The notes below the pieces were generated by a model. It was given only the letters and a program-made list of their open reading frames with translations. It searched no databases and had not been told where the DNA came from. This document shows positions 6,763 through 13,086 of a stretch of 16,019 nucleotides of DNA, piece by piece; the first letter of the stretch is position 1; each line of letters starts with the position of its first letter. The DNA is taken from contig CAMWWA010000012.1 in the NCBI GenBank assembly GCA_947177825.1, positions 1-16,019 of the forward strand, given 5' to 3'. The DNA is from an uncultured Clostridia bacterium (GTDB taxonomy: Bacteria > Bacillota > Clostridia > Christensenellales > Borkfalkiaceae). The translations under genes were made by a program, and so were the position numbers.

Positions 6763-6787
6763 GCCACCGCGGGCAAGTCCTTTAATT
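6756..6787 (+). repeat. 32-bp repeat, copy 1 (3' end of kduD)
   Basis: Identical over 32 bp to 8152-8183. It starts with the hairpin GCGGTG-AGC-CACCGC and continues GGGCAAGTCCTTTAATT. Its first bases supply the last Arg codon and TGA of kduD. The flanks differ between the copies, which sets the boundaries. Confidence 0.9.
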
Positions 6788-8158: not shown

Positions 8159-8183
8159 GCCACCGCGGGCAAGTCCTTTAATT
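8152..8183 (+). repeat. 32-bp repeat, copy 2 (3' end of glyA)
   Basis: Exact match to 6756-6787, placed in the same frame relative to the gene so that it again provides CGG TGA as last codon and stop. The true terminator of glyA follows 14 bp later, so this element is not needed for termination here. Confidence 0.9.
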
Positions 8184-8197
8184 ACTGCAAAACGTAT

Positions 8198-8233
8198 CAC
8201 CAACCACAACATATAGTGGTTGGTGTAATTTTT
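8198..8233 (+). terminator. Intrinsic terminator of glyA
   Basis: CACCAACCAC (8198-8207) pairs perfectly with GTGGTTGGTG (8216-8225) around an 8-nt loop, followed by TAATTTTTT. Confidence 0.92.
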
Positions 8234-8265: not shown

Positions 8266-8294
8266 TTGAAATTTTCATTTACGTATGATATAAT
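8266..8294 (+). promoter_or_regulatory. Strong extended -10 promoter of the surface-protein locus
   Basis: TTGAAA (8266-8271), 17-bp spacer, TATAAT (8289-8294) with TGA just before it (extended -10). Predicted start is near 8301. The leader carries GAGGAAA (8321-8327), correctly spaced for the ATG at 8333. Confidence 0.85.
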
Positions 8295-8332
8295 CCATAC
8301 ACTAAAAGTAGATTTTATGTGAGGAAACTTAT

Positions 8333-8380
8333 ATGAAGATGTTTAAAATGACGACTGGGGGGGGGGGCAAGCACTTTTAA
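8333..8380 (+). CDS. 5' start of the surface-protein gene, interrupted at the G tract
   Basis: ATG 8333 has the best Shine-Dalgarno site in the region (GAGGAAA, 5 nt spacing) and the strong promoter, yet as given it encodes only MKMFKMTTGGGGKHF before TAA. There are two further in-frame ATGs at 8339 and 8348. With 9 or 12 G instead of 11, the frame continues as QALLRNKQGAVKRALLYIL, straight into the large open frame that follows. I therefore read this as the true N-terminus of the large protein in its out-of-frame state rather than as a separate peptide gene. Alternatives are a miscounted homopolymer in the assembly or programmed slippage. Confidence 0.7.
   Translation: MKMFKMTTGGGGKHF
8357..8367 (+). 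repeat. Homopolymeric G tract (11 G), putative phase-variation switch
   Basis: Eleven consecutive G residues lie between codon 8 of the ATG-initiated frame and the main open frame. Eleven leaves the two frames out of register; 9 or 12 would join them. This is the position and type of tract used for slipped-strand ON/OFF switching of surface proteins in other bacteria. Confidence 0.8.
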
Positions 8381-8409
8381 GAAATAAGCAAGGTGCCGTA
8401 AAGCGCGCG

Positions 8410-11400
8410 TTGCTTTATATACTCACGCCCTTATTCTGTGCAGGACTCTGTCTTGGCACAGTTTTTTCATTTTTAAATAAAGATAATAAGGTGAGCGCAG
8501 AAGCAAATACAGCAAATGTTGCACCTACTTTTGCGTATGCAGTGACAGAGAAAAAACAGTATATTGCAGCTACTAATCCTACTAATGCAAATGGCTCCGG
8601 AAGGGTTCCAGGATACGCAGATATGTCGGCTTCAACTTTTGACCTTACTTTTAATAGTGCTAATGGTTCGGCTTCGGGTTCGTTCACTTCATCAAGTGCG
8701 AAAAACACCAAAGCTTATCTGGTAATTTTTAAAACTCAAATTACAATACCGGCACATACGACATACACCGTAAAATTTGACGGGAGTATGAATATTACAA
8801 CAAATACCAATAGTTGGTGGGAGTATCACTATGGATATCGAGGAGATGTATCTCCTACTTCTCATCAGGCTAGCAATATATGTACTGGATCCCGTGACGA
8901 TTCTACAAAAAGATCAGGTTCTACAACTGACACATTCGAAAACGATGGGGCAACCGACTTAATCAAAGATATATATTTTTCATGCTATGCAACCAGTTTT
9001 ACTGGAACAGCGAACAGTTACTTGTCGTTCAGCTTTTCACTAAGTACAACAATAACCGAAACGAATATAAACGTACCGGAAAATCTTAATACTACATACG
9101 ACGGTCAAAACCACTGGATAGACAGCTTTTCGGATGCGTGGTTAGAAAACTTTCATACCGACGAAACCGCAGTGCAAGTGCAGAACGTAAGCTATACGCC
9201 GTATGAAGGTGCCGTACAGGATATGGGCACTGACACGAGCAATATAATAGAGGCAGGCGTTTATACCATAAAAATGAATCTTTCCGACGATGCGGTAAAG
9301 CGATGGAGTAACGAAACTATTACTGACAAGACTTTCACCATAACGGTTGCCAAGGCAAACCCTAACGTTACGCCTAAGTTTACGGCAGCACCGTTACCCA
9401 ACCCGCTGTACACGTCGTATAACGACGGTAAACTGCCCGAACTTACGAACAGCGCACAGAACGCGACGGCAGGAACAATCGAGTGGCAGTCCGACCAGTC
9501 TCCGACGGAGGGTACGACGGTATATTACTGGCAGTTTACGCCGACGAATACCAATAATTATAAAAAAATCGAGGGCAAGAGTGCCGCAACTCAAATGACA
9601 GTGCCTTACACCACGCAGGGTATAGACCATTTGGAACTGACTTTGCGAATGGACGGCGAGGGCGAGGATGCGCAACCCGTAAAGATTTATAACGCGTATT
9701 CTCTTGCCGATTTAAAGAAGTACATCAAGGTTGAAGCCGTGTACGACGACGGCGTGACAAAGGTTGCGTTGGGCGACGCGGATTATGACTTTAAACGCGT
9801 TGATAACCAAAACAAACTTACCGTCGGTAGCGTCGCCGTGCGCGCGGTTAAAAAGAATACAAACGAATCGGGCGATTTGACGATAAACGTTCTCGAAGCC
9901 CAGGTGGAGGAACTTTCTGCAGATTATGACGGAACCAACCTCGTATATTCGGACACGCTTAGCGACGCGGACGTAAAGAGTCATCTTACGGTTACGGCGC
10001 GTTGGAATTACAGCGGCACCAGATTTTTACCCGTGGCGATTGCCGACGTAACCGTGACCGGTGATATCGAAGCGGGCGAAGACCTTGAATTCACCGCTGC
10101 ATACGGCGGCAAAGACTGCATTTTCTATGTTACCATAAACAAGGGTACTCTTACGCCCACGGTTACGTTTGACGACCTGACGGTAACGTACGACGGAAGT
10201 GACAAAAAGTTGGAGGCAACCGTAAGCGGCTTGCCAGACGGCGTAACTTTAACGCCGACTTATACCGTAACGGGTAGTGCAACTACTTACAATGCGGCGG
10301 GATATAGCAACGCGGGTACATATAATTATTCGATAAGCTTTACCCATACGAACCCGAACTACGAACAGTATACGGCGACTAAAACCGCCACATTGGAAAT
10401 CGAACAGGCGGACTATCCGGGTGCGGGCGATATAAAATTCGACGGTGCAACGGTAACTTACGACGAAGCAACGCACAAGCTTGAAGCAACGGACGTGCCC
10501 GACGGCGTAACGGTGACTTACGTTTATAACGGAAGCGCGCCGCAAGCCACGCCGTTCGAGTTTGACCAGATTAACGAGAGCGGTTACACCGTGACGGCAA
10601 AGTTCGCGCACACTAATCCCAACTATAAGGATATTGCCGACAAGACGGCGGTGCTTACAATCAGCGCAAAGCCGACTTACAATATTACCGCGACTTTCGA
10701 AAATTCAGAGGTTGAGTACGACGGCGAAAATCACAAGCTTGAAATAGTCGGCGATTTGCCCGAGGGTGTAACCGTTAAGTACTACGAGGTGGTTGACGGC
10801 ATAGTCAGCAGCACTGAATTTACGGGCGCGACTGACGTCGGCGAGTATGAAATTGTTGCTAAGTTTACGGGCAGTGACGACTATGCGGCAATTCCCGACA
10901 AGACTGCGACTTTGAAAATAACCAAAGCAGACTTCGATATGTCGGGCATTGAGTTTAAGGATAAAACAGTTACCTTTAATGGTACGGAATACACGCTTGC
11001 AATAAGCGGCAACTTGCCCGAGTGGATAACGCCTTCGTATAGCGTGGAAGGACAGAGCGGAACGAATTTCAGCGCCGCAGGAACGTATAATTTCACCGTA
11101 AAGTTCACGCACGACAACCCGAACTATAATACTATTGGCGATAAGACTGCAACGCTGATAATCAGTGATGCAGTTGTTACGGAAATCAAAGCCGAGCTTT
11201 CGGAAAAGAATTATACAACTGCTAACACCTTGGACGACTTAAAGGCGAAGCTGACCGTTACCGCGATATATAACAACGGCACGGAAGCCGAAATCGAAGA
11301 TTACGAGCTCGACTTTACCGGTTTGAGCGATAACGGCAAGTTTAAGTACGGTAACCAGTCGTTAACCGTTAAATACGGCGAGTTTACTGCGCCTATAATA

Positions 11401-12882
11401 AACAATATTATGGTAAGCCGTCAACAGGTTGCTCTGCCTACGTTCAAGGGCGGATTGAATTATACGGGTATTTCCATTAAACCGACTGCGGCGGACTTTA
11501 ACGGGTTTGACGCGGATATAATGACTTTCGTCGTTGACAAGACCGTTCCCGGCTTGACCGTCGGTTCGTACAAAGCCGTGTTCGCTTTGAACGACTCCGA
11601 AAATTACGAGTGGGCAACGAGCGCGACTTTGAAAAAGTCCGTGTTTGCCGCGGCAATATTCGACGGCGAAACCGAAGTAATACTCAACGCTAACGAGGCG
11701 GCTGTTGACTGGAACATTTCAAAGGCGGTGCTCACCGCAACCAGAAAGGACGGCGCGCTGCCCGTATTCGCAAGTGAAAGTTATATCGGCTCGCTTAATG
11801 AAGTCGTAGGGTTTAAATACTATTCGGACGAAGCCTGCACCGAGGAGGTTGCGGCGGAAGACCTTGCAAGGGAAACGCAGTATTACGTTAAGGCTGAACT
11901 TATCGATACGGACAATTTCGAGCTTGAAGCAAGCGCGGCGGCGTTCACGGTTAAATCGTTCACTTATACCACGCCTGCAAGGGAGCTTACGCTTTGGGAT
12001 AAAATCGTAAAATTCCTCGTTACAAACTGGCTGTGGTTCGTAATCGCAGCGGCAGTGCTGTTGTTCCTCATAATTCTTATCTGCATAATTGCAAGCGCGA
12101 AAAAGAAAAAGCGCAGGCTTGAAGAGGAGCGTTTGGCGCGCGAGGAGCAGCGCAGGCTGGAAGAGAAGGCCGAGCGCGAGCGCAGGGAGGAGCGCGAAGA
12201 ACAGCGCCGCCGCGAGGACCGCGAGGAGCGTATGGCGCGTATGTCCCAGGCGCAAATGCCTCAGATGATGATGCCGCAAATGATGCAGATGCCCCAGCAG
12301 ATGCCTCAGCAAATGCCTCAAACGGCGCAATCCATGCCTGCGGGCGGCTATGCGGACAATGCGCAGATAACCAGAATCGAAACCGAGCTTGCGGCTTTGA
12401 AGGCTGCCCAGGCGGCCAAGGAGCTTGCGGAAATAAAAGCGGCCCAGGCGGCAATGCACGACGATATCAACGAGCTGAAGCGCGGCGACCAGTTTGCGGG
12501 TATGAATATGGACGCGATGACCGAGATTATGACGCGTGCGCTTAAAAACGTGTTTGCTTCGGCGGCACAGCCCGTAGTTACGGCGCCTCCCGCACAGCCC
12601 GCTCAATTGACGGACGGCGGCTCTTCCACGGCGACGGCAAACGCCGTTTATCCGCCCGACGCGGTTATGACTACGGTGACCACCACAAAGATAGACACGA
12701 CCAAAAAGACCGCGCAGAACGCGCAGGCACAGGCGGCGCCTGCCGGCAGGACTATCGTGCGTAACTACGTGGCGCCCATGCCCGTGGACGACGGAAGGGT
12801 ATTCGACGTGGGCGGCTTCTATAAGCCTGCCGACCCCGTAACCGATATGGGCTTCGGCGAGGACGAAAAGAAGGACTTATAA
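8410..12882 (+). CDS. Large multi-Ig-domain surface protein with cytoplasmic tail, N-terminus in another frame
   Basis: The open frame gives 1490 residues counting from a TTG at 8410, but that codon has no ribosome site. Coding-like sequence with the basic n-region of a signal peptide (RNKQGAVKR) lies upstream, so the real start is probably ATG 8333 via the G tract (1516 residues with 12 G). The hydrophobic h-region is LLYILTPLFCAGLCLGTVFSFL. Residues about 30-220 form a Ser/Thr/Asn-rich domain, followed by beta-rich modules. These are YDG/MBG-like units at about 220-315 and four in tandem at 585-919, and Big_3-like units at about 404-496, 498-582 and 923-1001. Two more units lie before one transmembrane helix at 1207-1230. 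The 260-residue C-terminal side has a KKKKRR stop-transfer, a Glu/Arg coiled coil, a Met/Gln/Pro stretch and a second Ala-rich coil. There is no LPXTG. Likely an adhesin or envelope protein; function is inferred from architecture only. Confidence 0.8.
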   Translation: MLYILTPLFCAGLCLGTVFSFLNKDNKVSAEANTANVAPTFAYAVTEKKQYIAATNPTNANGSGRVPGYADMSASTFDLTFNSANGSASGSFTSSSAKNTKAYLVIFKTQITIPAHTTYTVKFDGSMNITTNTNSWWEYHYGYRGDVSPTSHQASNICTGSRDDSTKRSGSTTDTFENDGATDLIKDIYFSCYATSFTGTANSYLSFSFSLSTTITETNINVPENLNTTYDGQNHWIDSFSDAWLENFHTDETAVQVQNVSYTPYEGAVQDMGTDTSNIIEAGVYTIKMNLSDDAVKRWSNETITDKTFTITVAKANPNVTPKFTAAPLPNPLYTSYNDGKLPELTNSAQNATAGTIEWQSDQSPTEGTTVYYWQFTPTNTNNYKKIEGKSAATQMTVPYTTQGIDHLELTLRMDGEGEDAQPVKIYNAYSLADLKKYIKVEAVYDDGVTKVALGDADYDFKRVDNQNKLTVGSVAVRAVKKNTNESGDLTINVLEAQVEELSADYDGTNLVYSDTLSDADVKSHLTVTARWNYSGTRFLPVAIADVTVTGDIEAGEDLEFTAAYGGKDCIFYVTINKGTLTPTVTFDDLTVTYDGSDKKLEATVSGLPDGVTLTPTYTVTGSATTYNAAGYSNAGTYNYSISFTHTNPNYEQYTATKTATLEIEQADYPGAGDIKFDGATVTYDEATHKLEATDVPDGVTVTYVYNGSAPQATPFEFDQINESGYTVTAKFAHTNPNYKDIADKTAVLTISAKPTYNITATFENSEVEYDGENHKLEIVGDLPEGVTVKYYEVVDGIVSSTEFTGATDVGEYEIVAKFTGSDDYAAIPDKTATLKITKADFDMSGIEFKDKTVTFNGTEYTLAISGNLPEWITPSYSVEGQSGTNFSAAGTYNFTVKFTHDNPNYNTIGDKTATLIISDAVVTEIKAELSEKNYTTANTLDDLKAKLTVTAIYNNGTEAEIEDYELDFTGLSDNGKFKYGNQSLTVKYGEFTAPIINNIMVSRQQVALPTFKGGLNYTGISIKPTAADFNGFDADIMTFVVDKTVPGLTVGSYKAVFALNDSENYEWATSATLKKSVFAAAIFDGETEVILNANEAAVDWNISKAVLTATRKDGALPVFASESYIGSLNEVVGFKYYSDEACTEEVAAEDLARETQYYVKAELIDTDNFELEASAAAFTVKSFTYTTPARELTLWDKIVKFLVTNWLWFVIAAAVLLFLIILICIIASAKKKKRRLEEERLAREEQRRLEEKAERERREEREEQRRREDREERMARMSQAQMPQMMMPQMMQMPQQMPQQMPQTAQSMPAGGYADNAQITRIETELAALKAAQAAKELAEIKAAQAAMHDDINELKRGDQFAGMNMDAMTEIMTRALKNVFASAAQPVVTAPPAQPAQLTDGGSSTATANAVYPPDAVMTTVTTTKIDTTKKTAQNAQAQAAPAGRTIVRNYVAPMPVDDGRVFDVGGFYKPADPVTDMGFGEDEKKDL
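10162..11167 (+). repeat. Four tandem YDG/MBG-like protein modules
   Basis: Modules start near 10162, 10432, 10684 and 10948, a period of 84-90 codons. Each shows an opening strand ending in YDG, YDE or FNG, then KLEA or similar, PDGVT/PEGVT/PEWIT, a Gly-Tyr strand, F-H-x-NPNY (absent in the third) and a closing DKTATL. The DNA copies have diverged, so this is an old protein-level duplication and not a recent DNA repeat. Confidence 0.8.
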
Positions 12883-12916: not shown

Positions 12917-12937
12917 ATAACTGCAAATTAAATGAAT

Positions 12938-13060
12938 ATTCTTTGGGGCGGGGTGCAATTCCCCACCGGTGGTTATAGTCCACTAAGGACGGGCAAAAGC
13001 GCCCGTCCCCGAATCGGCGAAATTCCGATACCGACGGTACAGTCCGGATGATAAAAGAAT
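12938..13060 (+). ncRNA. FMN riboswitch (RFN element)
   Basis: The conserved RFN core is recognisable: GGGGCGGGGTGCAATTCCCC, ACCGGTGGT...AGTCCAC, GAATCGGCGAAATTCCGATACCGACGGT in pieces, and ACAGTCCGGATG. The closing P1 stem is ATTCTTT (12938-12944) with AAAGAAT (13054-13060). The variable P3-side hairpin is GGACGGGC...GCCCGTCC (about 12988-13008). It binds flavin mononucleotide and controls the riboflavin transporter gene just downstream through the terminator at 13087-13117. Confidence 0.97.
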
Positions 13061-13086
13061 TTAAGGCGGTAATATATCGTGTTTTT

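Follow-up and report, generated by a model that had tools for sequence, protein, structure and literature searches.

The window analysed here, the whole 16,019-nt stretch of Borkfalkiaceae contig CAMWWA010000012.1 (GCA_947177825.1; contig C12 of the own genome, G000), holds a well-supported candidate phase-variable locus that is one of a family and known in kind. It is very probably a simple-sequence contingency locus, in which slipped-strand switching would turn surface proteins on and off, with the assembled copy OFF. The phase-variation reading proposed in the earlier note is supported by the recurrence of the same tract site across the family, varying tract length, near-constant flanks, long in-frame copies, and a promoter and ribosome site that have been kept. 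Additionally, going beyond that note, the gene belongs to a large family, poly-G is seen in other leaders and in promoter spacers, and the flanking genes are conserved. The features of the locus are as follows.

8198-8225, forward strand: palindrome CCACAACATATAGTGG inside a terminator-like hairpin of 10 pairs, 3' of the SHMT gene (hairpin prediction)
8266-8294, forward strand: sigma-70-type promoter, TTGAAA / 17 / TG-extended TATAAT (consensus match)
8321-8327, forward strand: ribosome-binding site GAGGAAA (sequence)
8333-8380, forward strand: leader frame as assembled, MKMFKMTTGGGGKHF, 15 codons from ATG 8333, stop TAA 8378-8380 (translation)
8357-8367, forward strand: G-tract of exactly 11 G, proposed slippage switch (sequence; recurrence in the family)
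8368-8505, forward strand: signal-peptide part, with basic RNKQGAVKR, hydrophobic core ALLYILTPLFCAGLCLGTVFSF and Ala-rich end SAEA, the presumed cleavage region (sequence, by eye)
8385-8387, forward strand: TAA, early stop of the third frame (translation)
8410-12882, forward strand: large putative surface-protein frame, 1490 codons from TTG 8410 (open frame; family comparison)
12025-12099, forward strand: predicted membrane span, residues 1206-1230, then KKKKRR (by eye)
12100-12882, forward strand: charged, Met/Gln-rich tail of 260 residues, presumably cytoplasmic; a VAPMPVDDGRVFDVGGFY motif close to its end is conserved (family comparison)

The promoter, with a -35-like TTGAAA (8266-8271), a 17-base spacer and a TG-extended TATAAT (8289-8294), matches 11 of 12 consensus positions. 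All coordinates previously claimed for this extended -10 promoter, GAGGAAA, ATG 8333, the 11 G and the stop at 8378-8380 were confirmed, as was a frame of about 4.5 kb opening directly 3' of the tract in another register than ATG 8333; it has 1511 codons in all and stays open to 12882. The stops at 8378-8380 and 8385-8387 shut both off-frames at most 5 codons past the tract, and in the other leaders of this type (type A) that were read and retain the CAA(G/A)CACTTTTAAG flank, the off-frames are shut after 3 and 5 codons. Matches to 8 G, counted with overlap, are expected by chance in the window at a mean of 0.34; four were observed, a count reached in 1 of 200 dinucleotide shuffles. The tract is pure, longer than chance would give, and placed where its length sets the reading frame. 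Read from that frame, expression would be affected, and the window copy as assembled is OFF.

Relatives of the window protein were found in 22 of the 41 genomes searched, a set lying apart from G061 and G066, and are strongest in the own genome, G023, G010 and G020. The own genome assembly (1.34 Mb, 210 contigs, 82.6% complete) has seven runs of at least 9 G, six forward and one reverse. Four of the seven are the same leader site in four family genes, with 11 G in the window on C12, 10 on C92 and 9 on both C106 and C112, exact lengths in this assembly being soft because of a poly-G artefact on C104. In the C106 and C112 copies, reading from the leader ATG stays open across the signal peptide and until the retrieved sequence ends, at 511 codons. 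The C104 run comprises 16 G after an adapter-like sequence, presumably a Nextera adapter, and poly-A at the contig end, and is probably a read-through artefact of two-colour sequencing. The two remaining runs are on C118, in a non-coding stretch beside an apparent tRNA (by eye) with no evident role, and on C162, where 9 G lie between TTGAC and TACAAT, 5' of a lipoprotein-like gene.

Twenty-four family members were counted in G066 (99% complete, 30 contigs), excluding one weak match (C12:18793-19218). Nineteen have a tract-type leader, a module of promoter, ribosome site, MK(M/L).K-type start, G-tract and signal peptide, and five have another start and no tract. The tract is fully assembled in 11 of the 19 (8, 9, 9, 9, 10 in five, 11 and 11 G), three of which are in frame; the other eight end at contig ends in or just past the tract and were assigned by the bases after it, the tract itself being not, or not fully, seen. 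Several related G066 genes each have their own leader tract, as in an Opa-type multigene switch.

Length variation was compared between family members and species in a pooled set of 21 leaders with a fully assembled (bridged) tract from G000, G023, G061 and G066; L239/L177 (12 G, noisy contig end) and L068, L223 and L227 (artefact poly-G/C) were left out, as were leaders truncated at the tract. The tract has 8 G in two leaders, 9 in six, 10 in nine and 11 in four, and six of the 21 are in frame, all six with 9 G, although the 21 cases are not independent because recent copying or gene conversion could account for the leaders being shared. The distance from ATG to tract is 24 bases in 20 of 21 leaders (23 in L181), and the bases after the tract are CAA(G/A)CACTTTTAAG in 20 of 21 (the exception is L033). 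In L153, which lies close to a contig end, an additional frameshift falls within the signal peptide, and the frame is shut 35 codons past the tract. L181, L033 and L153 apart, length change that is not a multiple of three is confined to the tract. In-frame copies run long from the leader ATG (L145, 1508 codons; L156, 1780 codons). The proposal that 9 or 12 G would open the frame is borne out by in-frame relatives for 9 G and not for 12 G, for which a clean in-frame copy was not found. Comparison with related genomes, as had been suggested, gave not one fixed length but 8-11 G over 21 leaders in four genomes.

That the true tract is fixed in frame everywhere, with the 8-, 10- and 11-G copies being homopolymer errors of assembly or sequencing, is improbable. 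The assemblies are metagenomic, long poly-G/C contig ends occur at the tracts of L068, L223 and L227, and eight of the 19 G066 tract-type members break in or near the tract; given such artefacts and breaks, lengths may be off. However, different lengths are found inside long contigs of the 30-contig G066 (10 G at C8, 11 G at C19 and 9 G at C17), and 15 of the 21 leaders would all need to be wrong. A fixed length would moreover still leave the unbroken G run in all 21 bridged leaders unexplained. Coding does not explain an unbroken run of at least 8 G in every leader, since GGG is little used for Gly (28 of 326 Gly codons across ten genes of the window).

Constant translation from TTG 8410, or programmed frameshifting or transcriptional slippage, with tract length being no switch, is very unlikely. 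The TTG does lie within the open frame, long homopolymers can cause polymerase or ribosome slippage, and five of eight database relatives (P0003, P0004, P0005, P0007 and P0008) are annotated from the residue matching TTG 8410, one (P0002) being annotated from the leader start. However, this TTG is a Leu codon inside the signal peptide, no ribosome site was seen before it, and starting there would lose the basic part of the signal peptide, in agreement with the earlier description of it as a poor start. The signals upstream have also been kept: the TG-extended -10 box is present in 17 of the 17 leaders that have 100 or more upstream bases, and 20 of the 21 bridged leaders have a purine-rich ribosome site 5' of the ATG, the remaining one (L181) being cut by a contig end. 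The five tract-less G066 members begin at an ATG with a basic n-region (MKIKRKTF). A palindrome related to that of the window lies 5' of most family promoters, the pattern being found in 16 of 17 leaders tested.

A decaying pseudogene, in a family that grows and dies by duplication and with the G run as a hotspot in a copied leader, is scarcely tenable: highly similar leaders suggest copying, L033 is without the signal-peptide part (or misassembled at a contig end) and L153 and L263 are shut early after the tract, but the window frame is open for 1490 codons without a second lesion and the 24 G066 members have open frames of at least 1523 codons, uninterrupted by stops within the matches, a state that decay would not maintain.

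The preferred reading is one of phase variation through a slipping tract. Slipped-strand mispairing in replication would alter the number of G between leader ATG and signal peptide. One length class in three would put a protein of ~1500 residues in frame (ON), and the other two would end translation within ~20 codons (OFF). The tract-bearing members combine a common promoter-leader-tract-signal-peptide module and membrane/tail end with different ectodomains, so that independent switching would yield many surface combinations. This arrangement suggests an ability of the cells to turn an entire set of surface proteins on or off. From the length differences seen between copies and genomes we infer slippage as their cause, reversibility within a clone and a heterogeneous population; the benefit may be evasion of antibodies or phages, or varied binding.

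The module is constant and the body behind it is not. Over the 105 bases after the tract, 16 family members from four genomes have a mean identity of 88% (76-100%), whereas the next 300 bases have 39% (15 members with enough sequence), compared with 35% for shuffled sequence. On the upstream side, G066 C4 carries SHMT and the promoter module (87% identity over 921 bases) and breaks off within the tract; G061 and G023 carry them as well, both being truncated ahead of the tract. On the downstream side, a family member on G066 C12, a contig that begins at the tract, is followed by the FMN riboswitch-ECF-TsaE block; compared with the window, DNA identity is 90% over 1500 bases, and the ECF and TsaE proteins are 91% and 97% identical. 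G066 C4 and C12 are taken to be neighbours because of this synteny. In 100-residue bins, identity between the window protein and the G066 C12 protein is 23-52% up to residue 1000 and 43-87% beyond it. Ectodomain divergence beside conserved flanking DNA is as would be expected of a diversifying surface protein.

The FMN riboswitch (12935-13063, 102 bits) lies 5' of an ECF transporter substrate protein gene, which is therefore probably a riboflavin transporter. A related ECF transporter gene (~69% DNA identity) in G044 has an 8-G run a few codons past its ATG, in frame as assembled (L241, G044:C29). On the other side of the locus, the stretch GCCACCGCGGGCAAGTCCTTTAATT occurs at 6763-6787 and 8159-8183, directly 3' of the stop codons of two adjoining genes, and similar stretches elsewhere in the own genome and in relatives mark it as an interspersed repeat. 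Phage or plasmid origin of the leader module was rejected, with no match in either collection; the window protein had no relative among 15 pattern-matched viral stretches.

The encoded protein begins with a signal peptide; a variable ectodomain follows, in which the MBG-like repeats are weak, and then a single C-terminal membrane span and a conserved tail. No Pfam family exceeds its cut-off for the window protein in a Pfam scan (MBG_3 reaches 19.4 bits, below the cut-off of 25), and Big_3 exceeds its cut-off (21.2 bits) in two of five relatives scanned (P0002, 21.8 bits; P0003, 52.2 bits). The best hit in a search of solved structures by sequence, in the membrane/tail region, has an E of 0.035 and is not meaningful. 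We infer surface exposure, and an adhesin or receptor role is a guess. The long conserved tail after a single C-terminal span is unusual for a Gram-positive-type surface protein, and no LPXTG-type anchor was noticed by eye; the tail (12100-12882) is possibly a link to something inside the cell.

Across the genus, the combination of a ribosome site, an ATG and a run of 8 or more G within 36 bases gives 63 (overlapping) matches in 15 of 93 genomes, compared with 13 in 7 of 93 for the reversed pattern as a control. Eight genomes are judged to have real leader tracts: G000, G023, G061 and G066 (type A), G020, G065 and G010 (type B), and G107. The other seven (G003, G044, G051, G053, G006, G101 and G011) resemble background, control genomes also numbering seven. 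Type B is defined by its leader (MDKRVNKTRI, MNRRVNKTRI or MKRNSSFTRI), whether or not its proteins belong to the window family; in the copies read, 10 or 11 G precede a signal-peptide-like stretch, and those that could be judged are out of frame. In G107, 9 and 10 G precede type-IV-pilin-like N-termini with a RGFTIMELVIVIAVIAVLAAVLIP stretch. One (L254, on C3) is in frame and meets no stop in the sequence retrieved, and the other (L263, on C4) is out of frame with its downstream frame shut after 56 codons; two more sites, on C35 and C38, are pattern matches only. The G107 tracts are candidates for the same device on another protein class. Order-wide use of such leaders was rejected: 27 of 200 genomes match, and once G000 and G066 are set aside the remaining 25 number about the same as the 22 of the reversed control. 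The leader switch is thus claimed inside the genus only.

A second type of site lies in promoters. TTGAC, at least 8 G and TANNNT give 40 matches at 35 distinct sites in 22 of 93 genus genomes, compared with two matches in one genome for the reversed pattern. These spacers hold 8-15 G between TTGAC and -10-like boxes, and 25 of 28 distinct sites read have the TANNNT box 14-21 bases past the -35 box. An open frame with a ribosome site follows within 260 bases at 20 of the 28; by simple rules, 14 of these have a lipobox, giving a lipoprotein-like gene behind 14 of the 28 sites, and three have a signal-like start. An apparently orthologous spacer has 9, 10 and 10 G in G000 (C162:1876-1902; L277, L017), G061 (L272) and G023 (L275), with spacers of 15, 16 and 17, differences that are consistent with spacing-dependent promoter strength. 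The promoter-spacer tracts are candidates for transcriptional phase variation.

Tract-less family members (L215, L219, L208/L220, L221 and L222 in G066; L037, L074 and L077 in G000; L039 in G023) start MKIKRKTF..GG. Their 5'UTRs are long and finish with a terminator-like hairpin, which by eye overlaps an alternative helix of 14 pairs, 6 of them with two-sided changes kept (8 sequences aligned). An Rfam search of these 5'UTRs found no relevant family among those searched, and they are candidate RNA attenuators.

In classical hypermutable genomes mismatch repair has been lost, unlike in the window genus, where MutS1 exceeds its cut-off in 83 and MutL in 86 of 93 genomes. Both are near full length in G066; neither exceeds its cut-off in the own genome, which is 82.6% complete. 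As repair genes are present in most genus genomes, their loss was rejected as the general cause of slippage. A homopolymer in mutS as a mutator switch (G020, G065 and G010, where mutS is split or below cut-off) was also rejected: the stretches around mutS/mutL have no run of at least 8 identical bases, and the mutS breaks fall at contig ends.

With some reserve, we favour a two-tier poly-G programme in this uncultured gut Clostridia genus, with translational switches before up to ~19 giant surface proteins per genome, transcriptional ones in promoter spacers, often of lipoprotein genes, and a few tract-less members apparently under an RNA attenuator. If true, this would be a large multi-locus phase-variable genome outside known pathogens, with very many surface combinations. 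Sections of a 2025 review describe multi-locus phase-variable genomes as restricted to pathogens, suggest host selection or biased databases as the cause, and urge wider surveys (PMC11868660). About 20 surface genes that could be switched, in a gut lineage that is uncultured, bear directly on this question. Cells with different surface combinations are predicted to share one gut, and single-genome annotation would be misleading for family proteins, which are often annotated from an internal residue or cut at contig ends. The poly-G tracts may also be one reason for the fragmented assemblies of genus genomes. The locus has the value of being testable on existing metagenome reads.

Among known systems, the Neisseria opa family comes closest in logic, the poly-G loci of Campylobacter, Helicobacter and Neisseria in tract type, and Gardnerella as a Gram-positive case. 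The opa genes of Neisseria carry CTCTT repeats in the signal-peptide region, and each copy is ON or OFF by frame. Like them, the window family is a multigene surface family with a leader tract and proposed ON/OFF control by frame. It differs in its mononucleotide G tract, its occurrence in Clostridia, its ~1500 residues with one span (by eye) in place of an outer-membrane barrel, and its larger number of copies; one gonococcal strain has 11 opa genes, according to part of the same review (PMC11868660). Homology to an opa-type barrel was not found, in that no Pfam family is over cut-off for the window protein. The poly-G/poly-C loci of Campylobacter, Helicobacter and Neisseria resemble the window in having ~8-12 G near the 5' end and a frame switch, and differ from it in that the window genus has mismatch repair genes in most genomes and a whole family with one leader module. 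Promoter-spacer tracts are also known in these three genera.

A survey of 99 genomes, in the portion cited here, found poly-A/T tracts to be biased towards the 5' end and poly-G/C not to be over-represented (PMC2831843). Among the literature matches listed, which give papers in part and cover few subscription journals, there is no report of homopolymeric or poly-G phase variation in Clostridia, Firmicutes or gut bacteria. Gardnerella, Gram-positive like the window genus, has many G/C tracts of at least 8, mostly 5' of genes and some in surface-protein genes, with evidence of variation (PMC11287997, in part). However, it belongs to the Actinobacteria, and the sections of that paper cited here do not describe a single shared leader module as in the window family (PMC11287997). 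Invertons of gut bacteria, for example in Clostridioides difficile, provide phase variation that includes Clostridia, as stated in parts of two papers (PMC11892184, PMC11868660); they act by site-specific inversion, whereas the window family would act by slippage.
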